A stretch of DNA of 64,000 bases, from assembly GCF_003063475.1 (NCBI RefSeq), contig NZ_NESP01000001.1, positions 434,001 to 498,000 on the forward strand, written 5' to 3'. Source of the stretch: Limnohabitans curvus (GTDB lineage Bacteria > Pseudomonadota > Gammaproteobacteria > Burkholderiales > Burkholderiaceae_C). Each line of letters starts with the position of its first letter. Position 1 is the first letter of the stretch. The translations under genes were made by a program, and so were the position numbers. This document shows positions 9,088 to 63,633 of the stretch, in pieces. Under the pieces are notes generated by a model. The model did no database searches. It was not told where the DNA came from and was given only the letters and a program-made list of their open reading frames with translations.

Positions 9088-9738
9088 GGCTTGGCGCTGA
9101 GGCGCTGGGATATCCATGCCAATCAGCATGTCAATCAATTCGGGCAAGGTGCGTGCGGCCATTTTGTCCATCACACGGGCGCGGTGCAGTTTGATCGTGG
9201 CAGACGCACCGCCATCAATGATGGAAATTTGCTGGTTGGAATACCCGCGTACCATCCAATGGCAAACCTCCATTTCACGCGGTGTCAGGCGTTTTAAACG
9301 CTCAGACACTTGCATGTTTTTGTCAGCATTGACCACCGCTTGCTCAGACATGTGCATGGCGCGCTGAATCGCATCCATCATGGCTTGTGCCGTGAACGGT
9401 TTGAGCAAAAAGTCCACCGCACCCTGCTTCATCGCAATAATGATTTCTTCTGGACGGCTATCGCCGCTGACAAAAATCACTGGAACATGTTGTGCCAATG
9501 TTTTAAGTTGCGTTTGCAAACCCACACCCGTTGTGCCAGGCATGCGCATGTCCAACAAAATCACAGCCGGCGAAGGCACCACTGGGTTCAGTAAAAAGGT
9601 ATCAGCGCAGTCGTATAAGCGCACCTCGTAACCGACGCGCTCCAGCATCGTCGACAAGCTGCGCCGCACAGACGCATCATCATCATCAATCACGATGACA
9701 TGTCCTAAGAACTGCAAAGTGTCAGTGCTGTTTGGCAT
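9058..9738 (-). CDS. FixJ/NarL-type response regulator, orphan
   Basis: 226-residue two-domain response regulator. The receiver domain has the acidic DDD at 18-20, phospho-acceptor Asp63 in 'LLDMRMPG' and Lys113 in 'FLLKPF'. The C-terminal LuxR-type helix-turn-helix starts at 'LTPREMEV' and ends 'RARVMDKMAARTLPELI', typical of the FixJ branch. The recognition-helix region 'IIDGGASATIKLHR' is less regular than usual. No sensor kinase lies nearby. Its start overlaps the end of the bactofilin gene by 17 bp, suggesting coupling. Confidence 0.88.
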   Translation of the reverse strand: MPNSTDTLQFLGHVIVIDDDDASVRRSLSTMLERVGYEVRLYDCADTFLLNPVVPSPAVILLDMRMPGTTGVGLQTQLKTLAQHVPVIFVSGDSRPEEIIIAMKQGAVDFLLKPFTAQAMMDAIQRAMHMSEQAVVNADKNMQVSERLKRLTPREMEVCHWMVRGYSNQQISIIDGGASATIKLHRARVMDKMAARTLPELIDMLIGMDIPAPQRQASTNHTTRVE

Positions 9739-10105
9739 GGGTGTTACTCATCATTCCGTACAGCTTTGCCCCATGCTCAATCGCCATGGTGGCGTAGGAA
9801 ATATTGCCTTTGACATCAGCGCCAGCGTGCAGCTCGACACGCCCTGTCGATTCGATGTTGCCTGTGACCACCCCATTCACCACCGCTTGTTGCGCACTGA
9901 TGTCACCTTCAACGTGGGCTTGCGAAAGCACGGACAGTTGAGCGTTTGGGCTGCCGTTCACATCAATGTTGCCAACCACGTGGCCTTTGAGTTGAACCAA
10001 CTCCTGCGACACGATGTTGCCCACCACCACCGCCGACTGGCCAATGATGGTTCTTTCCGTGGAGGCCCCTGACACAGGCTGCCTAAACTTCATACTTTTG
10101 AACAT
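9722..10105 (-). CDS. bactofilin family cytoskeletal protein
   Basis: 127-residue polymer-forming protein. The repeated short beta-helix rungs ('VVGNIVSQ', 'VVGNIDVNG', 'VEGDISAQ', 'VTGNIEST', 'VKGNISY') with G-N/D-I every 17-20 residues are the hallmark of bactofilins, which form filaments without nucleotide. It sits 5 bp downstream of the RodZ-like gene and overlaps the response regulator gene, giving a three-gene minus-strand unit. Confidence 0.9.
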   Translation of the reverse strand: MFKSMKFRQPVSGASTERTIIGQSAVVVGNIVSQELVQLKGHVVGNIDVNGSPNAQLSVLSQAHVEGDISAQQAVVNGVVTGNIESTGRVELHAGADVKGNISYATMAIEHGAKLYGMMSNTHAKQH

Positions 10106-10110
10106 GGGGT

Positions 10111-11055
10111 TTATCGCGCGACAGGAATCTCAACCAACTTCACATGGTTGACTGCCGCATCAGGCAAGGACACGCGCCCGCCTTGGAAATAAATCTGAAG
10201 CTTTTGCAAATGCGCGCTCGACACTTGCCATGGTGCGACACCGTAAACGCTACGATTTTCACCCGCTTTGAGCTGCAAAACTGTGGCTTGCTTATTGCCA
10301 TCCACCACGCAAATCTCGGCATTTGCAGTGCTCACCAAGTAGACATAGCGGCCTTCTTTGTGAGCCGTAAATGGGGTCAACTGTGGCATGGCCTCACTGG
10401 AATACGCGCACGCTCCCGCCTGAACGACTGCGCTTGGAGCGGCAGCTGCCGCGGGTGCAGAAGCTGAGGGCACTGGCGTGGGAGCCACAGGCACCACCAC
10501 GGCGAGCGGCAGCTCTGCAGCAGAAGAAATTGGCACAGGTTGAACTGGCGAAGGCGTGGCCTGCGTCGCCGCTGCCTGACCCGAATTTTGGGGATTGTTG
10601 AAAAGAAACAAAAGTACGGCGATGACCAACAACACCAGCGCACCCAGCGCCTGTTTGTGCACATTCAACTTGGCGAGTCCGGCGCGCACAAGGTCTGACG
10701 ATGAGCGTTGCAACGAAGGCTGCTTACTCATAGCCACAATTTGGTCCAAGGTGCTCAAATGCGCATCACCAACTTGGGTTGCATCGCGCAAGGCTTCGGG
10801 CAGTTCCACGGTGGGCGGCTCAGCCCCCAAAATCATCAACAACCTTTTGTACGCTTGGCGCTTGATGGCATCAGAGTAAAAGAAGCCGTCGCTGGCATCG
10901 GTCTCAAGCTGACGCAGCTGAGCAACCGACAAACAAGAAATGCGCGCTAGTACGAACAAGTCCATTCCTGCAGCCTCGCGCAAAGCACGCAGGTACTGGG
11001 GATCACAGGTGTCGTACACACTGCGCTTGGTTTCTGTGGGTTGATTCGTTGTCAT
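10111..11055 (-). CDS. RodZ-like helix-turn-helix membrane protein
   Basis: 314-residue protein with a cytoplasmic HTH_25-like domain (about residues 15-75, 'LRALREAAGMDLFVLARISCLSVAQLRQLE' in pieces), a Pro/Ala-flanked transmembrane helix near 135-152 ('ALGALVLLVIAVLLFLF'), a Pro/Ala/Ser-rich linker, and a C-terminal DUF4115-like beta domain ('LQLKAGENRSVYG'). RodZ has this layout and links MreB to wall synthesis. The immediate bactofilin neighbour supports a cytoskeletal role. It may be a RodZ paralogue rather than the housekeeping RodZ. Start at 11055 preferred over 11073. Confidence 0.75.
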   Translation of the reverse strand: MTTNQPTETKRSVYDTCDPQYLRALREAAGMDLFVLARISCLSVAQLRQLETDASDGFFYSDAIKRQAYKRLLMILGAEPPTVELPEALRDATQVGDAHLSTLDQIVAMSKQPSLQRSSSDLVRAGLAKLNVHKQALGALVLLVIAVLLFLFNNPQNSGQAAATQATPSPVQPVPISSAAELPLAVVVPVAPTPVPSASAPAAAAAPSAVVQAGACAYSSEAMPQLTPFTAHKEGRYVYLVSTANAEICVVDGNKQATVLQLKAGENRSVYGVAPWQVSSAHLQKLQIYFQGGRVSLPDAAVNHVKLVEIPVAR

Positions 11056-11124
11056 GATTGACAGTTTTGTCACAATTTATCAAAAATTAATAGGGTACTG
11101 TCGCTGCGCGTATAACTGTCGTCA

Positions 11125-11142
11125 ATACGCCAGCTGGCGTAT
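11125..11142. promoter_or_regulatory. 18-bp perfect palindrome, candidate operator
   Basis: ATACGCCAG followed by its exact complement CTGGCGTAT, in the gap between the RodZ-like gene (minus) and thyA (plus). A third arm GCGTAT occurs at 11108-11113, so three GCGTAT/ATACGC arms lie within 35 bp. There is no T-run, so it is not a terminator. I infer a protein-binding site; the binding protein is unknown. Confidence 0.45.
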
Positions 11143-11214
11143 AAAACTTTAATACTAACCTCAATTAAGACTTCACCCATTTAAACTCTGTGGAGTTTTT
11201 TACTGAATTACCCT

Positions 11215-12042
11215 ATGCGCCCCATTCGCCGTCAATACGAAGATTTCATGCAACACGTGGATAGCCACGGTGTCGCCAAGACCGACCGCACGGGCACGGG
11301 GACCAAAAGCGTGTTTGGCTACCAAATGCGGTTTGACCTGAATGAGGGTTTTCCACTGGTGACGACCAAAAAGGTTCACCTGCGCTCCATCATCCAAGAG
11401 CTGCTGTGGTTTCTGACGGGTTCAAGCAACAACAACTGGCTCAAAGAACGCAACGTCTCCATCTGGGACGAATGGGCCCGTGAAGACGGCGACCTCGGTC
11501 CCGTGTACGGCGTGCAATGGCGCAGCTGGCCCACGCCCGATGGTGGCCACATCGACCAAATTCAGCAAGTGATGGACACGCTCAAAAGCAACCCCGACAG
11601 CCGCCGCATCATCGTGAGTGCGTGGAACGTGGCTGAGCTCGACAAGATGGCCCTCATGCCTTGCCATGCGTTCTTCCAGTTCTACGTTGCGCCTGCGCAA
11701 AACCCGGGCGAAAAAGCCAAGCTCAGCTGCCAGCTGTACCAACGCAGCGCCGACATCTTTTTGGGTGTGCCATTCAACATCGCGAGCTATGCCCTGCTCA
11801 CCCACATGGTGGCCCAACAGTGCGACTTGGATGTGGGCGACTTCATCTGGACCGGCGGCGACTGCCACATCTACAGCAACCACCACGAGCAAGTGGCGCT
11901 GCAACTCAGCCGCGAACCGTTTGCCTACCCCACGCTGCACATCAAGCGCAAACCCGACTCCATCTTCGACTACCAGTTTGAAGATTTCGAGGTGTTGGAC
12001 TACCAATGCCACGGGGCCATCAAAGCCCCTGTGGCGGTGTGA
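11215..12042 (+). CDS. thyA: thymidylate synthase
   Basis: Converts dUMP to dTMP with methylene-tetrahydrofolate. 275 residues, close to the E. coli length. The catalytic cysteine is C150 in '[11 protein letters not shown]'. Other signatures are '[18 protein letters not shown]', '[20 protein letters not shown]' (nucleotide-binding) and '[10 protein letters not shown]'. folA begins 16 bp downstream, which supplies the dihydrofolate recycling step, so the two form a dTMP-synthesis pair. Confidence 0.97.
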
Positions 12043-53631: not shown

Positions 53632-55866
53632 ATGGAAATCAAGGTCAACTTTCTCGACAAGCTTCGCCTAGAAGCCAAGTTCGATGACTTCACAGTGGTC
53701 GCCGACCAACCCATTCGCTACAAAGGCGATGGTTCGGCACCTGGCCCCTTCGATTATTTTTTAGCCTCATCGGCTTTGTGTGCGGCCTATTTTGTGAAGC
53801 TGTATTGCGTCACACGCAATATCTCGACCGAAAACATTCGTCTCTCGCAAAACAACATCGTCGACCCCGAGAACCGTTACCAACAGATTTTCAAGATTCA
53901 AGTTGAGCTGCCGCCAGACATCCAAGAGGTGGACCGCCGCGGTATTTTGAATTCGATTGATCGCTGCACGGTCAAAAAAGTGGTGCAAGCAGGGCCTGAA
54001 TTTGTCATTGAAGAAGTCGAGAACTTGGATGCAGATGCACAGTCGTTGCTGACGCTGAAACACACATCTGACACCAGCACCTACATCGCGGGGAAAGACC
54101 TGCCTCTTGAGCAAACCATCTCCAACATGTCAGGCCTCTTGGCGGACTTGGGCATCAAGATTGAAATTGCATCGTGGCGCAACATCATTCCAAATGTGTG
54201 GTCACTCCATGTCCGCGATGCGCACTCGCCGATGTGCTTTACCAACGGCAAGGGCTCAACCAAAGAAAGCGCATTGGCGTCCGCACTGGGCGAATACATC
54301 GAGCGGCTCAACAACAACCATTTCTATGCGGGTGCCTTTTGGGGCGAGGACATTGCCAATTCAGAATTTGTGCATTACCCGAATGAGCGTTGGTTCAAGC
54401 CAAACAAGAAGGATGCGCTGCCCAAAGAAATTCTGGATACGTACTGCCTCAACATCTACAACCCCGATGGCGAGCTGCGTGGCTCGCACCTGATCGACAC
54501 CAACTCTGGCAACACGCAACGTGGCATCTGCGCCCTGCCCTACGTGCGCCAGTCAGATGGCGAGGTGGTGTACTTCCCATCCAACCTGATCGAAAACTTG
54601 TTCGTCAGCAACGGCATGAGCGCGGGCAACACGCTGGCCGAAGCGCAGGTGCAATGCTTGTCCGAAATTTTCGAACGCGCCGTCAAGCGTGAAATCTTGG
54701 AAGGTGAAATTTGCTTGCCCGACGTGCCGGCAAACGTGTTGGCCAAATACCCCAGCATCTTGGCTGGCATTCAAGGTCTGGAAGAACAGGGCTTCCCGGT
54801 ATTGGTCAAAGACGCTTCACTGGGCGGCACCTACCCCGTGATGTGCGTCACCTTGATGAATCCACGCACAGGCGGGGTGTTTGCGTCGTTCGGCGCACAC
54901 CCCAGCTTTGAAGTGGCACTGGAGCGCAGTCTCACCGAGCTGCTACAAGGGCGCAGTTTTGAAGGTCTGAACGATTTGCCACCGCCCACATTTGAGAGCA
55001 ATGCGGTCACCGAGCCCAACAATTTTGTGGAGCACTTCATTGATTCGAGTGGCATCGTGTCGTGGCGCTTTTTCAGTGCCAAAGCGGATTTCGAATTTGT
55101 AGAGTGGGATTTTTCTGGCCAAGGTCAAAACTCCAATGCAGAAGAAGCCTCGACCTTGTTTGGCATTCTCGAAGACATGGGCAAAGAGGTCTACACCGCA
55201 GTGCATGACCAGTTGGGCACCATCGCCTGCCGAATTTTGGTGCCGGGTTATTCAGAGGTGTATCCGGTTGAAGACTTGATCTGGGACAACACCAACAAAG
55301 CCTTGTTGTTCCGCGCTGATATTTTGAACTTACACCGCTTGGACGATGCCAACTTGTCTGCGCTGCTGGATCGACTAGAGAACAACGAGCTGGACGAGTA
55401 CTCTGACATTGCCACGTTGATCGGCATCGAGTTTGATGAGAACACGGATTGGGGCCAGCTGACCGTGCTTGAGTTGAAGCTGCTGATTCATCTCGCCTTG
55501 AAGCAATTTGAAGAAGCCCAAGAACTTGTAGGCGCCTTCCTGCAATACAACGACAACACGGTGGAACGCAAACTGTTTTACCAAGCTCTGAACGTGGTGT
55601 TGGAAGTGCAGCTTGATCCAGACCTAGAACAGGAAGCCTATGCAGCCAATTTCCGCCGGATGTTTGGCAACACCCGGATGGACGCCGTCATGGGATCTGT
55701 GGATGGCACCGTGCGTTTCTTCGGTTTAACGCCAACCAGCATGAAACTAGAAGGGCTTGACAGGCACCACCGCTTGATCAACAGCTACAAGAAATTACAT
55801 CTGGCGCGCGCCAAATTCAAGGCTTTTAATCTTGATCCCAAGCCTGCAAAAGATCTGACGGAATGA
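53632..55866 (+). CDS. OsmC-YcaO fusion protein
   Basis: 744 residues. The N-terminal OsmC-like domain (about 1-135) has two candidate redox Cys, C50 in 'ASSALC' and C112 in 'SIDRCTV'. The YcaO domain (about 160-560) has the ATP/Mg motifs 'GKGSTKESALASALGEYIERLN', 'QVQCLSEIFERAVKREI' and 'ALERSLTELLQGR'. A helical, TPR-like C-terminal part follows. E. coli YcaO lacks the OsmC part and is linked to RimO-dependent methylthiolation of ribosomal protein S12. Start at 53632 by the OsmC opening. Its 3' end overlaps the convergent tssA by 41 bp. Confidence 0.88.
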   Translation: MEIKVNFLDKLRLEAKFDDFTVVADQPIRYKGDGSAPGPFDYFLASSALCAAYFVKLYCVTRNISTENIRLSQNNIVDPENRYQQIFKIQVELPPDIQEVDRRGILNSIDRCTVKKVVQAGPEFVIEEVENLDADAQSLLTLKHTSDTSTYIAGKDLPLEQTISNMSGLLADLGIKIEIASWRNIIPNVWSLHVRDAHSPMCFTNGKGSTKESALASALGEYIERLNNNHFYAGAFWGEDIANSEFVHYPNERWFKPNKKDALPKEILDTYCLNIYNPDGELRGSHLIDTNSGNTQRGICALPYVRQSDGEVVYFPSNLIENLFVSNGMSAGNTLAEAQVQCLSEIFERAVKREILEGEICLPDVPANVLAKYPSILAGIQGLEEQGFPVLVKDASLGGTYPVMCVTLMNPRTGGVFASFGAHPSFEVALERSLTELLQGRSFEGLNDLPPPTFESNAVTEPNNFVEHFIDSSGIVSWRFFSAKADFEFVEWDFSGQGQNSNAEEASTLFGILEDMGKEVYTAVHDQLGTIACRILVPGYSEVYPVEDLIWDNTNKALLFRADILNLHRLDDANLSALLDRLENNELDEYSDIATLIGIEFDENTDWGQLTVLELKLLIHLALKQFEEAQELVGAFLQYNDNTVERKLFYQALNVVLEVQLDPDLEQEAYAANFRRMFGNTRMDAVMGSVDGTVRFFGLTPTSMKLEGLDRHHRLINSYKKLHLARAKFKAFNLDPKPAKDLTE

Positions 55867-56893
55867 TGTGAGCCACTTCAGAAAACCGTTTGCCCCACAT
55901 GCGTTCAGCTTGTTTGAGCAAAACAGCAACAGGACTGCTGGGTTCGTTACGTTCAATCCATTCACGCACCTGGATTAAAGAGCGTCGAATTTGTTCACGT
56001 TGGTCTGCGTTACTCAAAGCTGGCAATGCATGACTGACAGGGCTTGATTCCAGAATGAGCGCTGTATGGGGCTGATTTTGTTGTGGCGTGAGATACACAG
56101 GGCTGGGTGTGGGCTCAACCTGTGTATGTCTCTGACTCTGAGGCAACAAGACACGCAATAGCTTCAAAATTGGCTGAAGATTCGGAGCGTCTTCTTTCAA
56201 ATGGCGCTGCGCCCATGCGTTGATTTGTGCAATACTTTGAGTACAACCGACTAGGGCCAACAATGTTGTGTCTTTGCTCTGATACAAATCTTCAATCTGA
56301 CGGTGAACCATATCTGTGTCAAGTGCATAAGCAGGCGTTGGTAATGCAAATGCGCGCTCCACATCACGTACGGTAAGGCGCAACGCGGTGGATGCAGAAA
56401 TCACCACATCACGAATATCCCCCAGTAGGCCCTCAGGGTCACACAAGGCTTCTATGGCATTGGCTCTCACGGCGGGGTCATGCATGCCTTCAATGTGGGG
56501 TTGAGGATGAACATGCTGCTCGAATTTTTCAAGCACTTGCTGCAAGCCCAGTACCCCCTCCAACAAGCCGATAGCCCCCGCCACATGACAACGTGCGCGC
56601 ATGAACCATATAAACACCGAAATGTCTTTGCTTCGTAAAAGCAATCGGCGACTGTCGCGCTCTATATCTTTCCAATCCAACGTTGGTGGTTGCGCAGAAA
56701 AATCTCCATATTGCACATCGGCCTTAGGGGCTAGCCGTGTTTGTAAAACTGCAAACTCAGTGTCGTAATCTAACGATGGACCACATGGCTCTTGTGCATT
56801 GATAGGGTCTAACCACTCGGGGGGTATCTGAATGTCCACCATGTTTTTTTCACTGCCCATGATGGTTTGCAAAAGTTGTTTGAATGAGGTCAT
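55826..56893 (-). CDS. tssA: type VI secretion protein TssA
   Basis: 355 residues. The N-terminal ImpA_N domain is recognised from 'PCGPSLDYDTEFAVL', 'DWKDIERDSRRLLLRSKDISVFIWFMRA' (in pieces) and 'GLLEGVLGLQQVLEKFEQHVHP'. A C-terminal region 'RREQIRRSLIQVREWIERNEPSSPVAVLLKQAERM'-like is as in short TssA forms. In the family it primes baseplate and tail assembly. It lies 6 bp after tssG. Remnant of a cluster whose other core genes are not here. Confidence 0.9.
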   Translation of the reverse strand: MTSFKQLLQTIMGSEKNMVDIQIPPEWLDPINAQEPCGPSLDYDTEFAVLQTRLAPKADVQYGDFSAQPPTLDWKDIERDSRRLLLRSKDISVFIWFMRARCHVAGAIGLLEGVLGLQQVLEKFEQHVHPQPHIEGMHDPAVRANAIEALCDPEGLLGDIRDVVISASTALRLTVRDVERAFALPTPAYALDTDMVHRQIEDLYQSKDTTLLALVGCTQSIAQINAWAQRHLKEDAPNLQPILKLLRVLLPQSQRHTQVEPTPSPVYLTPQQNQPHTALILESSPVSHALPALSNADQREQIRRSLIQVREWIERNEPSSPVAVLLKQAERMWGKRFSEVAHIIPSDLLQAWDQD

Positions 56894-56899
56894 GATTTG

Positions 56900-57949
56900 T
56901 CAGTGGCTCAGCACGTAATTCTCTGGCTCTAGCACCATGCCCGTAATGGCTTTGGTTGTGGTTGTTTTTTGTTGGTCCATCCAAGTGGACCACCCCAGCT
57001 GCGTCCCACCACCCAAGGTGCTTGCGGGTGCCGTATCGCTCCGAATCAAAAGTTCAACTTCCCATACGTATTCGAAACCGATGAAAGAACGTACCAGCTC
57101 AACCAAGGCTGGTAAGTCTTTACCGCTGGCAGAGCCTTGAGGAGTTAGACGCAAATAAGCATCCATATTCAATGGGCCGATGGTCAAGCAAAATCGTGTT
57201 TGGCGATCAGGCACCTTCTCACCTACCATCGCGCCCAAACCTAGCATGGCAGACTCATTGGACATCCCCAATTGACACCTGTCTTGCGGCTCAATAGGCA
57301 TCCATTGCAATCGGTACTCATCCAATTTGACGGGAACGCCAAAGAAGCGCTTGAGGGAACTGACCAAACCCTCAGGGTCACGCGGGCCACGTACACGGTG
57401 CGCAGCACTGGCCCATCTGGCATGGGGCGGTAATGGGCTATGTCTTAGCTCGCTTGGTTCATCGCCCGTCAAACGGGCTACATAGTTGGTGAAGGCTTCA
57501 TCTTCAACCCGATCCAGCCCTGCCGCCGCTTGGCTTTGCGCCCATGCGCGGTAGAGATGGGTGAACGATCTGTGATGAAAGATGTCAAGAAAATTGGCTA
57601 AGGTTTGGTCACGGCGCGCCTCGGTCCGTTCACGCACTTGCTCTGTGTAGTGAATGGGCAGTGCGCCATTCGGTCCCAACATGCCCAGACCAAAGAGATA
57701 AATGTGTGGCGTTCCATTTTTTTCGACCACACGCGCAATTTCGCGAGGGGCAAAAGCAAGACTGGCTTGCTGCCCTAATCGAAAATTATCTTGCTGAGGC
57801 CTTTGGCTTTGCCCAATGTGAGGGGCATCTTTGGCATGTGCATCCAACATGCGCATCAGTGTCAAAAAGCCATGTCGCCATGGCTGTTGTTGCGCCTCCA
57901 GCAACATCACATCTTTTGGCTGAGAAGACTTGTCAAAGGACGGCATCAT
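56900..57949 (-). CDS. tssG: type VI secretion baseplate protein TssG
   Basis: 349 residues. 'QPWRHGFLTLMRMLDAH', 'LGQQASLAFAPREIARV', 'YLFGLGMLGPNGALPIHYTEQVRERTEARRDQTLANFLDIFHHR' (in pieces) and 'TQLGWSTWM' are TssG/VasB features. The start at 57949 overlaps the tssF stop (ATGATG). Intact by length, but its operon has lost the upstream part of tssF. Confidence 0.9.
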   Translation of the reverse strand: MMPSFDKSSQPKDVMLLEAQQQPWRHGFLTLMRMLDAHAKDAPHIGQSQRPQQDNFRLGQQASLAFAPREIARVVEKNGTPHIYLFGLGMLGPNGALPIHYTEQVRERTEARRDQTLANFLDIFHHRSFTHLYRAWAQSQAAAGLDRVEDEAFTNYVARLTGDEPSELRHSPLPPHARWASAAHRVRGPRDPEGLVSSLKRFFGVPVKLDEYRLQWMPIEPQDRCQLGMSNESAMLGLGAMVGEKVPDRQTRFCLTIGPLNMDAYLRLTPQGSASGKDLPALVELVRSFIGFEYVWEVELLIRSDTAPASTLGGGTQLGWSTWMDQQKTTTTKAITGMVLEPENYVLSH

Positions 57950-58897
57950 GCGCCCCCTCGGGTACCCATGCGAACGGGCCACATACAAATTTGACCGCGC
58001 TGCATGGACTCAAGTTTGGTTTGCGTGAACGTGTTGATAGAGACATGTCGTGCCAAATAGTGCTCAAGCACCAAGCCAAAAAGATAAGGACTGACGCCGC
58101 TAAAACCGTCTTCATCGACACTGAGATGGCACTCCATGCCGCGGCCATACACCAGCGGACCTGCGCCAGGGAGGCGTCGTGTCACAGGACGCACTTGACT
58201 GCCGATCAAACTATCAATGTGTTTGCTTGAAATCAAGTCATCTGAATTCACAAACAGCCGAAGCATGTCACGCAAAGCTTGTGCACCTTCGCGGTGAGGC
58301 ATGTCGGACAACGGCAAATAGTTAAACCCAAGCTGGCGAATCAAACGCCAAGCTAACTCACCTTGTGCAAAAGGCGCTTTCGGCGCAGAGGGTGGACGGA
58401 TCAACCCGACAGCACACACAGGCACGGAGTCCACAACCGTTAAATCAGAATATCCATTCCGAGGAACCAGTCGAGGCAAGTCACGATTGGTCAAAAGCGC
58501 CTGAACCGAGAGGTATCGCAACTCTTGGCTATACGGTGCCTCATGCTGGTCCACTAGGCTGAGAAACAGCTCTGTGCCCACATAAGGGGTGCGTGTCCCG
58601 TATTTTCTTGAAGAATCCGAAGCCATGCGCTGCTCTCGACGAACTGAAAAATACCGACCGTGATTTCCTTCGTCTTGGTTGAGCGTTTGATACATGGGCC
58701 GGAATATTTTGGACTCGGTTGATCCGGCCACTTGCCCCGCCAGCTCAGAAACGCTGAACACTTCGTAATCTAAAGGCCTTGATTTGTCAGGCACCAAATG
58801 GAATTCGGGTTGACCAGACACCACTTCAATGCGATCTGTACGGTGTTGGAACAGATTAATCACGGGCGTGCAAAAAAGTGCGAATTGATCTTTATCA
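57946..58897 (-). pseudogene. tssF: tssF, 3' fragment truncated by IS
   Basis: The minus-strand frame encodes about 317 C-terminal residues of the T6SS baseplate protein TssF ('FALFCTPVINLFQHRTDRIEV', 'PMYQTLNQ', 'ELFLSLVDQ', 'LSVQALLTNRDLPRLV'). TssF is normally around 600 residues, so nearly half is missing. The reading frame continues into the IS as antisense sequence, making a spurious chimeric frame up to 59199. No T6SS sequence exists on the far side of the IS, so the 5' half is gone rather than split. Confidence 0.88.
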
Positions 58898-58956
58898 TGA
58901 CCTGCCCCCTCTGAGCCGTACCAAATCGATGGAACTAAGTTCGCTAATTTTGGAGA

Positions 58957-59232
58957 ATGGCGGATATGAAGACCACACGATTTACCGACGAGCAGATCAT
59001 CGGATTCCTCAAGCAAGCTGAAGCAGGCATGTCCATCAAGGACATTTGCCGCTCTGGCGGCTTTAGCCAGCCGACCTTTTACAAGTGGCGCTCGCGCTTT
59101 GGCGGCATGGAAGCCTCCGATGCGGCCAAGCTGCGCGACCTGGAAGCTGAGAACAACAAGCTCAAGAAACTGCTGGCCGAAGCGCACCTGGACATCCATG
59201 CGCTCAAAAGCGTCTTCGGCGTAAAGCGCTAG
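58957..59232 (+). CDS. IS3-family transposase OrfA
   Basis: 91 residues. Helix-turn-helix 'RFTDEQIIGFLKQAEAGMSIKDICRSGGFSQPTFYKWRSRFGG' (in pieces), then a leucine-zipper-like 'LRDLEAENNKLKKLLAEAHLDIHALKSV'. GGAG precedes the ATG. Resembles OrfA of the IS407 group. Confidence 0.93.
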   Translation: MADMKTTRFTDEQIIGFLKQAEAGMSIKDICRSGGFSQPTFYKWRSRFGGMEASDAAKLRDLEAENNKLKKLLAEAHLDIHALKSVFGVKR

Positions 59233-59264
59233 CCCCGCAGGTCAAACGCGAGGCCATCACCCAG

Positions 59265-60095
59265 ATGATCCAGACCCATCTTCTGTCTGAGCGCCACGCG
59301 TGCTGCCTTGTGGGGCTAAGCCGAGACAGTTTTCGCCACCCGCCTAAGCGTGATGCGCTCACGCAGGCGCTGGGCGAACGTATCGTGGACATTGCCCACG
59401 TACGCCGAAGATTTGGCTACCGCCGCATCCACGATCTGCTGCGCCCGGAGTTTCCGGGCGTCAACCACAAGCGGATCTACCGCTTGTACAAAGATGCCAA
59501 CTTGGCCGTAAGAAGGCGCAAGAAGGCCAAGCGCCCACCGTGTGAGCGGGTGCCCTTGCAACTGGCGCAAAAGGTCAACGATGTTTGGAGCATGGATTTC
59601 GTCTCGGACAGCTTGTCCAATGGCAGGCGCATCAAGTGCCTGACTGTGGCCGATGACTTCAGCCACGAGTGCGTGGACATTGCCGTGGACTACGGGATCT
59701 CGGGGCAATACGTGACACGCTTGCTCGACCAAGCGGCCACCTTCAGAGGCTACCCACTGGCCGTGAGAACGGACAACGGTCCAGAGTTCACAAGCCGGGC
59801 CTTTATGGCTTGGGCCACAGCACATGGCGTGCGGCACATCTTGACCCAGCCGGGCAGGCCGATGCAAAACGGCTACATCGAGAGTTTCAACGGCAAGTTT
59901 CGAGATGAATGCTTGAACGAGCAGTGGTTCTTGAGCTTGCCCCAAGCCAGGCAGTGCATTGCCGATTGGCGCCAGGACTACAACGAAGTCAGGCCCCACA
60001 GCAGCCTGGGCCGGATTCCACCGGCTCAGTTCGCGCAGCAGCAAAGGATTCAAACCAATGCCGCTGCAAATCTCAACCCTCAAGTTTTGGATTAA
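59265..60095 (+). CDS. IS3-family transposase OrfB (rve integrase core)
   Basis: 276 residues from the first ATG. DDE catalytic residues are in 'WSMDFVSD', 'RTDNGPEFTS' and 'NGYIESFNGKFRDECLN'. The frame is open upstream in the -1 phase through the end of orfA ('LRRKALAPQVKREAITQ'). OrfAB is therefore probably made by -1 frameshifting, perhaps at the AAAAG near 59206. Appears intact. Confidence 0.93.
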   Translation: MIQTHLLSERHACCLVGLSRDSFRHPPKRDALTQALGERIVDIAHVRRRFGYRRIHDLLRPEFPGVNHKRIYRLYKDANLAVRRRKKAKRPPCERVPLQLAQKVNDVWSMDFVSDSLSNGRRIKCLTVADDFSHECVDIAVDYGISGQYVTRLLDQAATFRGYPLAVRTDNGPEFTSRAFMAWATAHGVRHILTQPGRPMQNGYIESFNGKFRDECLNEQWFLSLPQARQCIADWRQDYNEVRPHSSLGRIPPAQFAQQQRIQTNAAANLNPQVLD

Positions 60096-60150
60096 CCTTG
60101 AACCCTTGGACTACTTCCGATTGATTGGTACGGCCAGAGGGGGCAGGTCA

Positions 60151-60835
60151 CCAGCATTGAGAAACTTGTTGCCCCAATCGATGATTGGATGATTTGAATA
60201 GCAAGTTCTAAATTGGCTTGAGCCATGGCATACGCAGATTCAGCCACTGCAGCGGCACCTTCGGCTTGGTGTTGATCCGATTGAGCTAAATCACCTGCTT
60301 TCACACGTTTTGCGACATCATCAGCCAAGCGTCGCGCATTGGTCAATTGATCCGCAGTGACTTCTTGCTCAATGCGAGCACGGTGTAAATTCCACCAATC
60401 TTCTCGAATTTTTCCAGCTACACGCAGTTGATTGGCTTTGATTTGATACTCTAAAGCGTTGGCTTGAGCTTCTGCAAGCGCAGAGCTTTTGCTTCGTTCG
60501 CCAGGTAACCACATCGGAACTGCGATTGCGATTTGTTCCTCCCGTGCCCCCAAATTTCTGTTCCACTGATCAGATTTTGAGTTCAGCTCTACCGCTGCGG
60601 GTTCTGGCGTTAATGCTGCCGCCGCTCGCTTTTGAGCTTGCAAGGCTTGCTGCCGTGACTCTAAAGCTTGCGCTTCAGGTTGACGTAACCAAGTGGCATC
60701 AAAAATATCTTTGACGCTTTGAATTTGCCTTGGCTGATTGGTATTTTGCGCAAATACATTAATGACACTGCATACTGAAAAGGCTGCTACTGCACACAGC
60801 TGCCTTTTGTAATTCCATTTTTCTCTTCGATACAT
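60151..60835 (-). pseudogene. czcC: czcC-like outer membrane efflux gene, 5' fragment
   Basis: About 228 N-terminal residues of a TolC-family protein: signal 'LCAVAAFSVCSVINVFAQ', then 'EAQALESRQQALQAQKRAAAALTPEPAAVEL' (in pieces) and the long helical hairpin 'EYQIKANQLRVAGKIREDWWNLHRARIEQE'. CzcC-like proteins are around 420 residues, so the C-terminal half is missing. The frame runs 59 bp into the IS before stopping. Upstream czcI supports a metal RND system whose czcB and czcA parts are absent. Confidence 0.83.
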
Positions 60836-60971: not shown

Positions 60972-61343
60972 TCAGGCGAGGTGGTTCCACTGAGGTCGTT
61001 CTGGTCGTTCGATAGCAGAACGAAAGAAGAGTTCGGTTTGGGTTGCCGTCATGTGCTGAGGCACTTGGGATGAAGGTATTTCAGTTTGAACAATCAGTGC
61101 TGCACAACAACCGGCGTGGCAACTGGCGCAATCTGTATCAGTACCGTCGAGATTGTTCATCTTTGAGGTGGGCACTTTTGAATCGGACGCGGAGTCGCCA
61201 GACTTGTGCTCATGCTCGTGATGACCGGGATGTTGTGCTTGGGAGCTGGTATTGCTTTCGTGCTGGCAATAACCACTCACTGCAGCCCAAGAGAGCTGCA
61301 GCGGTGTAAATACCAGCAAAAGAATGACTATCCAGCGTTGCAT
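60972..61343 (-). CDS. czcI: CzcI-like periplasmic metal-efflux accessory protein
   Basis: 123 residues. Signal peptide 'RWIVILLLVFTPLQLSWAAVSGYCQHE', then a His-rich stretch 'HPGHHEHEHKSGDS' and the conserved 'DTDCASCHAGCCAAL'. This matches CzcI, encoded first in czcICBA operons and proposed to modulate them. The start at 61343 gives a normal signal peptide. czcC follows but is broken. Confidence 0.85.
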   Translation of the reverse strand: MQRWIVILLLVFTPLQLSWAAVSGYCQHESNTSSQAQHPGHHEHEHKSGDSASDSKVPTSKMNNLDGTDTDCASCHAGCCAALIVQTEIPSSQVPQHMTATQTELFFRSAIERPERPQWNHLA

Positions 61344-61404
61344 TGTTTTAGAGTCTATCAGCAAAGAATAAAGTGAAGGTTAGTTACGCCCTGAATAAAC
61401 ATAG

Positions 61405-63633
61405 TCACTTTGGGGTTTTCAACAAACGTAAACCGTTGAAGACAACCAACAGACTTGCCCCCATGTCGGCAAACACTGCCATCCACATGGATGCATCACC
61501 AAAAATTGCCAGAGCCAAAAACACCGCCTTGATGCCTAGAGCCAATGTGATGTTTTGCCAAAGCACGGCATGTGTTTTCTTAGACAAGTGAATGGTCTCA
61601 GGTAAGCGACGTAAGTCATCGTTCATCACAACCACATCAGCCGCTTCCATCGCTGTATGTGTGCCAGCGCCTCCCATCGCAAAACCGATATTGGCTTTTG
61701 CCAAGGCTGGTGCGTCGTTAATTCCGTCACCCGTCATGGCAGTGACACCAAATCTTTTCTGCAACTCAGCAATCGCTTCTAGTTTGTCTTCTGGCAAAAG
61801 GTTGCCTCTGACCTCATCAATTCCTGCTTGGGCTGCTACTGTATGAGCCGTGGCAATGTTGTCACCAGTCAACATCACGGGAGTTACGCCCATCGCTTTT
61901 AACTCAGCCACTGCTTGTGTAGATGACGGTTTAATCGTGTCAGCCACAGCGCACAAAGCCATCACCCGATTGGCATTGGTCAATATGGTGACGGTTTGTC
62001 CTGCTTCTTCATGAATTTTGAGGCGAGCTTCTAGTTCAGCAGAGCATTGGTCGCGCTCTTCAATCCAACGGTGATTGGCTAACGCATAGTTATGCGTGTC
62101 AATCACACCTTGAACACCTCGTCCTACAACGGCTTGGAAATCGCTGACGTCTTTCAGATCTGCTGTGAGACCTTCGGCAATGGCTTTAGACACGGGATGA
62201 TCTGAACGAGCAGCAAGACTTTTCGCGATGCATTGAATCATTGCGGGGTCTAGGCTTGTATCGATGGGTTCAAACGCTACCAATTTGGGTTTACCTTGTG
62301 TGATCGTTCCCGTTTTGTCTAATGCCACCACCTTGATGCTTCGGGCCTCTTCAAGATAAACGCCGCCTTTAATCAAAATGCCACGGCGTGCCGCTGCTGC
62401 CAAACCGCTGACCACAGTGACAGGCGTGGAGATTACCAAGGCACAAGGGCAAGCAATGACCAAAAGTACCAAGGCTTTGTAGAGTGCTTGCATCCAAGTC
62501 CAATCCATGAGCCAAGGCATCAGCACCGCAACCGCAACAGCTAAAACAAAAACCGCAGGGGTGTAAATGGTCGCAAATTGATCGACGAACCGTTGAGTTG
62601 GCGCACGTGAAGCCTGAGCTTGCTCAACGGCGTGAATGATGCGAGTTAAGGTGCTGTCCGAAGCCAAAGCAGTGACCCGAATTTCTAGCGCACCCGACTG
62701 ATTGATGGTGCCTGCATAGACTTCATCACCAGCTGCTTTATCAACAGGAAGACTTTCGCCAGTGACAGGGGCTTGATTGACGGCACTGATGCCCGACGTG
62801 ACAACACCATCAAGGGCAATGCGCTCACCTGGACGCACACGCACAGTCGCCCCTACTTCAATGGTTTTGACGGGGCATTGCAGCCATTGACCGTCAGCTT
62901 GGAGAACTTCGGCTTGCTCTGGTGCAAGTGCCAAAAGGCTTTTGATGGCATTACGAGCACGGTCAACTGCGCGGGCCTCAATGGCTTCTGCAATCGCATA
63001 CAGCGCCATCACCATGGCGGCTTCAGGCCATTGCCCAATCAAGAAGGCACCTGTGACAGCCACCGTCATCAGGGCGTTCATGTTCAAGCGTGCCTGCATC
63101 AGAGCCGATACACCTTTGCCGTAAACAGAAAACCCAGCCAAGGCGATTGCACCAGCGGCAAGCGCCATGCCTAGTATCTTTGTTGGCAAGTAATCAGGGA
63201 GGGCAAATGCCAGGCCCTCAGCGGCCAAAGACAGTGCCAATGCACAAATCAATTTTCCCCATGACGCCCAAAAGCTGTGAGATACAACGTTGCCATCATT
63301 TGCGTTGTCACTATTTAAAGGCTCTGGCTTAAAGCCTACCTTGCGAATGGCGTTAACCGCTTCTATAACGACCTGTTCATCAGCCGCAATCGTCAACTCT
63401 CGAGCGGTCAGATTGAAACGCAGACTTTGAATACCTTCAACATTTGTCAGCGCATGGCGAATTTCTGATTCCTCTGAGGCGCAGTCCATGTTGGCAATGC
63501 GAAACCTCTGTCCATCAAGATTTGAAATAACGGGACTGGTCTGTTCAAAAGTGACAGGCGTGGTGTCGCAAGCAGTCCCGCATCCGCAGGAAGTTTGAGT
63601 TTTAGATGGCTGAACTTGCTCAGTGGCTGACAT
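61405..63633 (-). CDS. zntA: Zn/Cd/Pb-exporting P-type ATPase (ZntA/CadA type)
   Basis: 742 residues of a P1B-type ATPase. A Cys-rich N terminus ('SCGCGTACD') and one HMA domain with 'NMDCASEE' precede eight predicted helices, the metal motif CPC in 'LVIACPCALVIS', the phosphorylation site 'DKTGTITQGKP', the HP motif 'SDHPVSKAIA' and the hinge 'MTGDGINDAPALAKA'. CPC plus this HMA form fits Zn/Cd/Pb export. Divergent from a CadR/PbrR-like MerR regulator with a typical operator between them. Confidence 0.93.
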   Translation of the reverse strand: MSATEQVQPSKTQTSCGCGTACDTTPVTFEQTSPVISNLDGQRFRIANMDCASEESEIRHALTNVEGIQSLRFNLTARELTIAADEQVVIEAVNAIRKVGFKPEPLNSDNANDGNVVSHSFWASWGKLICALALSLAAEGLAFALPDYLPTKILGMALAAGAIALAGFSVYGKGVSALMQARLNMNALMTVAVTGAFLIGQWPEAAMVMALYAIAEAIEARAVDRARNAIKSLLALAPEQAEVLQADGQWLQCPVKTIEVGATVRVRPGERIALDGVVTSGISAVNQAPVTGESLPVDKAAGDEVYAGTINQSGALEIRVTALASDSTLTRIIHAVEQAQASRAPTQRFVDQFATIYTPAVFVLAVAVAVLMPWLMDWTWMQALYKALVLLVIACPCALVISTPVTVVSGLAAAARRGILIKGGVYLEEARSIKVVALDKTGTITQGKPKLVAFEPIDTSLDPAMIQCIAKSLAARSDHPVSKAIAEGLTADLKDVSDFQAVVGRGVQGVIDTHNYALANHRWIEERDQCSAELEARLKIHEEAGQTVTILTNANRVMALCAVADTIKPSSTQAVAELKAMGVTPVMLTGDNIATAHTVAAQAGIDEVRGNLLPEDKLEAIAELQKRFGVTAMTGDGINDAPALAKANIGFAMGGAGTHTAMEAADVVVMNDDLRRLPETIHLSKKTHAVLWQNITLALGIKAVFLALAIFGDASMWMAVFADMGASLLVVFNGLRLLKTPK

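Follow-up and report, generated by a model that had tools for sequence, protein, structure and literature searches.

The window analysed here is a 64,000-nucleotide stretch of the Limnohabitans curvus genome (positions 434001–498000 of contig C1 in an assembly of 3.03 Mb on 2 contigs). Within it, a complete IS3-family insertion sequence of 1253 bp (58898..60150, plus strand) lies between the 3′ half of the type VI secretion system (T6SS) gene tssF (57946..58897, minus strand) and the 5′ half of the metal-efflux gene czcC (60151..60835, minus strand, 228 codons). Both genes are cut at the tips of the element. These coordinates bear out a preliminary description of the locus, which had placed a complete IS between the two fragments and read it as a rearrangement joining a T6SS cluster to a czc cluster.

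The element contains two open reading frames, orfA (58957..59232, plus strand), which encodes an HTH_Tnp_1 domain, and orfB (59265..60095, plus strand), which encodes an rve integrase core. The orfB product scores 235 bits against the NCBIfam IS3 family transposase model (cut-off 160). As to a possible programmed frameshift between the two, the orfB frame stays open back into orfA, with an AAAAG at 59206. The terminal inverted repeats are perfect over 16 bp and extend to 27/26 bp if a one-base offset is allowed. An orfA with an HTH, an orfB with a DDE integrase core, a length of 1253 bp with terminal inverted repeats, and a 4 bp target duplication at three of the four identical genomic copies (the window copy being the one without) all fit the IS407 group of the IS3 family. 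For this group, the account in PMC3281130 gives lengths of 1197–1269 bp, and the elements it describes have in common with the window IS a size of ~1.2–1.27 kb, two ORFs and, mostly, 4 bp duplications. No close match to a named element was found among the annotated plasmid relatives compared; records annotated as IS1477 and IS476 share only 69–76% nucleotide identity with it.

Four identical full-length copies of the IS are present on the chromosome, at 492898 (plus strand, the window copy), 506145 (minus), 2431002 (plus) and 2815002 (plus). The other three are all bordered by perfect 4 bp duplications (CGTC/CGTC, CAGC/CAGC and GTAC/GTAC, read in IS orientation), which fixes both the boundaries of the element and the length of its duplication. 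With the boundaries thus set, the window copy is flanked by ATCA on the left (58894..58897, plus strand) and CCAG on the right (60151..60154, plus strand). These tetramers share no base position by position, so the window IS has no target duplication, as initially reported. Since the flanks also derive from two different genes, a simple insertion was rejected, and the earlier reading of the site as a rearrangement stands.

A missing duplication is in itself common among relatives of this element. Out of 15 related IS loci in other genomes, 9 could be scored (the remaining 6 were dropped, their ends not being recognisable); a 4 bp duplication was present in four of the nine and absent from five. 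The absence of a duplication alone therefore does not identify the route of a deletion. The second contig, a plasmid, carries a full-length relative of the IS with 81% identity (C2:93159–94412), flanked by GCTA/GACC in IS orientation and likewise without a target duplication. The copy nearest to the window IS lies 12 kb away in inverted orientation (C1:506145–507397, GACG duplication) and splits an ORF that by eye appears to be of the DUF1232 type.

On the T6SS side, the tssF fragment matches Pfam PF05947 with 343 bits over profile positions 304–608 of 608, so that the N-terminal half of the protein is missing. Homology extends all the way to the IS, with the first complete codon that remains corresponding to residue 311 of the 626-residue TssF of Rhodoferax lacus. 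Two further open frames complete the remnant, namely tssG (56900..57988, minus strand; PF06996, 294 bits) and a tssA-like gene with an ImpA_N domain (55826..56893, minus strand; PF06812, 91 bits), which is the last T6SS gene. The tssA-like product is 76% identical at the amino acid level to its counterpart in the metagenome-assembled genome (MAG) L036. In R. lacus, the corresponding genes are arranged as tssM-tagF-tagK-(unnamed)-tssE-tssF-tssG-tssA-vgrG. A search of the 2-contig genome with the N-terminal half of R. lacus TssF gave no match; the same query matched seven other T6SS loci locally at 37–91% identity, its source excluded. We took the presence of the sheath subunit TssC as the mark of a functional T6SS. 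The genome has no match to tssC (PF05943), for which the E. coli control was positive. Hence, what had been described as a T6SS cluster is only a three-gene relic, tssF′-tssG-tssA, and the loss goes well beyond tssF.

At the other end of the relic, the 3′ ends of tssA (minus strand) and a convergent ycaO gene (plus strand) overlap by 41 bp (55826–55866). Alignment with homologues in two relatives (G011 and G009) indicates that the YcaO C-terminus is ~11–12 residues longer here. The longer end and the overlap with tssA are possibly a second deletion joint that would bound the T6SS relic. As a marker of the chromosomal backbone ycaO was unhelpful, its surroundings in G011 and G009 being unrelated.

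On the metal-resistance side, the czcC fragment corresponds to the N-terminal region of CzcC-like proteins, to which it is ~51–55% identical, and OEP is its sole Pfam match; the frames in three aligned relatives are 444–460 codons long. The residues directly before the IS align poorly, from the last 5 (HMMER, best hits) to ~14 (multiple alignment). Thus, of the proposed truncation exactly at both tips, the tssF part is borne out by homology up to the IS, and the czcC sequence is likely native right up to the tip, with less certainty than on the tssF side. Next to czcC′ lie a small ORF of 130 aa without a Pfam match (60972..61364, minus strand) and a cadA-like heavy-metal P-type ATPase gene (61405..63633, minus strand; Pfam E1-E2_ATPase, Hydrolase and HMA). 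The ATPase is 65% identical to one near czcC in the relative G357, where the gene order is cadA, a regulator/sensor pair, czcC, czcB and czcA. By analogy, the lost side of the window locus would be expected to include czcB and czcA. Beyond the junction, C1:494151–549000 contains metal- and copper-resistance genes followed by a phage-like region (ORFs, judged by eye), G+C being lower in the former.

An OEP domain search of the 2-contig genome returned 17 matches, which resolve into 8 complete pairs and one unpaired match, that of the window locus, and thus no orphan C-terminal half of CzcC; this is a weak test, as the known 5′ fragment itself scores only E = 1.4e-5. Five CzcA-family pumps score above the curated cut-off in the genome, none of them at this locus. 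The loss of Czc is therefore local, affecting an incomplete locus here while the genome keeps other CzcA-family pumps. As for the suggestion that both systems at this locus are probably inactive, the T6SS is a relic in a genome without detectable tssC, and on the metal side only this Czc locus is lost.

Intact T6SS loci were found across the family, as had been proposed for a search of relatives, and no ancestral arrangement was among them. The DNA of the T6SS relic was matched in 13 of 399 family-sample genomes, czcC in 79 of 399 (E ≤ 1e-30) and the IS in 14 of 397 (E ≤ 1e-200), the L. curvus genome itself being counted each time. Family-wide, the search for an empty or ancestral site turned up intact T6SS loci, further relics and CzcC at ~55% identity or less, and nothing else. 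Neither ancestral adjacency nor an IS in either gene was seen among the relatives searched, and no genome with two same-orientation IS copies at both sites was present in the sample, which held no close sister strain. Among 36 other genomes of the same genus, many of them incomplete, TssF gave a single match at 25% identity and this czcC none at E ≤ 1e-20.

Taken together, the IS most probably marks a deletion joint between tssF′ and czcC′, by whichever route it arose. The evidence is an intact IS that lacks a target duplication, two genes cut at its tips, and missing parts that were not found in the genome, with the search for czcC being the weaker test. One or more IS copies would once have sat in one or both of the two genes. 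A later loss of the stretch separating the half-genes would have taken the 5′ half of tssF together with the 3′ half of czcC, probably along with czcB and czcA, and the product would be one intact IS between two unrelated half-genes. From this we infer the former connection of the two half-genes through intervening DNA, as well as the size of the loss and its route. The single most likely route, which we favour only tentatively, starts from two same-orientation copies, the first inserted into tssF at the target ATCA and the second into czcC at CCAG; recombination between them would have joined an outer flank from each. Recombination between two IS copies was also the mechanism first suggested for the site. 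That suggestion was right in kind, as a deletion or rearrangement; the mechanism is not established by the data, as the outcome of an IS-adjacent deletion would be identical.

In such an adjacent deletion, a single IS in tssF or czcC would have been enough: transposase acting at one end would have deleted the DNA up to the other gene, together with one copy of the duplication. We rank this route second, though it is almost as probable as the first. It needs only one prior insertion, it predicts an identical sequence, and nothing in the sequence speaks against it. Precedents are available from the cases described in two studies. In the Lenski lines, 14 deletions associated with IS150 lacked duplications; every one had been preceded by an IS at that position, and they were classed as adjacent deletions (PMC11708052). 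For ISPmar2, a member of the IS407 group, five insertions were analysed, and one of them was accompanied by a 15 bp deletion at one IS end and had no duplication (PMC3281130). We place adjacent deletion behind two-copy recombination only because the four identical copies show that the IS multiplies in this genome, so that two nearby copies are easy to suppose.

The T6SS and czc genes need not have been neighbours beforehand if a circular metal-resistance element with an IS in its own czcC had recombined with an IS in tssF; the left junction would be as observed, and the far junction (czcC 3′-IS-tssF 5′) would have been lost later. Such a capture followed by loss would suit the near absence of both gene sets from the other 36 genomes sampled in the genus (one distant TssF excepted), the lower G+C to the right of the IS (~0.47–0.53, against mostly 0.52–0.59 on the left) and an ORF on that side which by eye resembles a site-specific recombinase. 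However, it requires an extra deletion, as neither missing half was found. Moreover, a search of plasmid records for the cadR-cadA-czcC arrangement found no copy: 703 records matched, none over more than 80% of the query, and among the best matches listed only the ATPase was covered, plus cadR in two. We consider capture unlikely. Less likely still is that two IS copies recombined to give an inversion or translocation, in which case the missing halves would lie next to a different copy. The inverted identical copy 12 kb away would offer a partner, but that copy and the two others carry their own matching duplications, and the N-terminal half of TssF was not found in the genome; inversion with the 506145 copy was rejected as the main reading for the former reason. 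The missing halves, which the preliminary description had proposed to seek beside other IS copies, were not found there, and no identical copy carries the missing partners; we therefore prefer deletion over inversion. Misassembly at the IS repeat is the least probable of these readings. Four identical copies of 1253 bp are potential sites of false joins, yet a swap of flanks would mix at least two copies and the other three have matching duplications; the assembly consists of 2 contigs with a completeness of 100 and a contamination of 0.22. Any exchange, by misassembly or inversion, should show up as mismatched flanks in one partner or more, which disfavours both and weakens the concern about misassembly raised at the outset. 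The only variant that escapes the duplication test is a collapse that dropped intervening DNA.

If an IS-associated deletion did take place, it would have removed at minimum ~0.65 kb, the rest of czcC, and 0.93 kb of tssF. We estimate a total loss of ~6.5 kb, including czcB and czcA, if the gene order was as in G357. The remnant frames of tssF, tssG and tssA contain no internal stops, and in comparison with relatives pN is far below pS (for tssF, pN 0.166 versus pS 0.834 against R. lacus, L034), values that mostly reflect selection before the deletion. Open frames with low pN, together with four identical IS copies, fit a recent event.

The large IS-associated deletions without target duplication described in PMC11708052 resemble the window locus in having a single IS at the deletion joint, and that account names recombination between copies and adjacent deletion as frequent causes. 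Those deletions arose in experimental evolution with the ancestors at hand, whereas the window locus has no known ancestor. A T6SS reduced to remnants has also been described for Escherichia coli ST410 and ST131, where loss occurred by deletion or IS insertion (PMC10711316). In the cases given there, an IS of another kind, ISEc12, splits tssM of ST131 with a 5 bp duplication, and the E. coli deletions are without a mobile element, unlike the window deletion, which has an IS at its joint. A literature search on the T6SS of Limnohabitans gave nothing relevant among the matches listed.

Other relics of this T6SS lineage are present in related genomes. In the L036 MAG, whose TssG is 85% identical, tssG from residue 122 onwards and tssA (9725–11803) lie ~200 bp downstream of tRNA-His. 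In a Hydrogenophaga MAG (L033, 2701–6252), the last ~114 residues of tssF are followed by tssG and tssA, with TssK- and ClpV-like ORFs upstream (by eye). TssC had no match in either genome, and R. lacus was matched. It is conceivable, but very doubtful, that related Comamonadaceae have lost parts of this T6SS lineage several times over, through deletions that differ from case to case but spare tssG and tssA: at the IS here, inside tssG in L036 and inside tssF in L033. The relics came from a search with tssG, and by ascertainment they should therefore retain that gene; MAGs make up two of the three genomes. If selection has maintained the spared tssG and tssA, a function other than secretion is possible for them.

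IS-associated deletion is an ordinary route of bacterial gene loss. The event described here is a real but ordinary new instance of this well-known process, and it leaves the general understanding of it unchanged. For L. curvus, it means that the T6SS genes at this locus should not be taken for a functional secretion system, and that the joint could be misannotated as two nearby functional clusters. As such, the locus cleanly illustrates how a single IS can eliminate portions of two accessory systems simultaneously.
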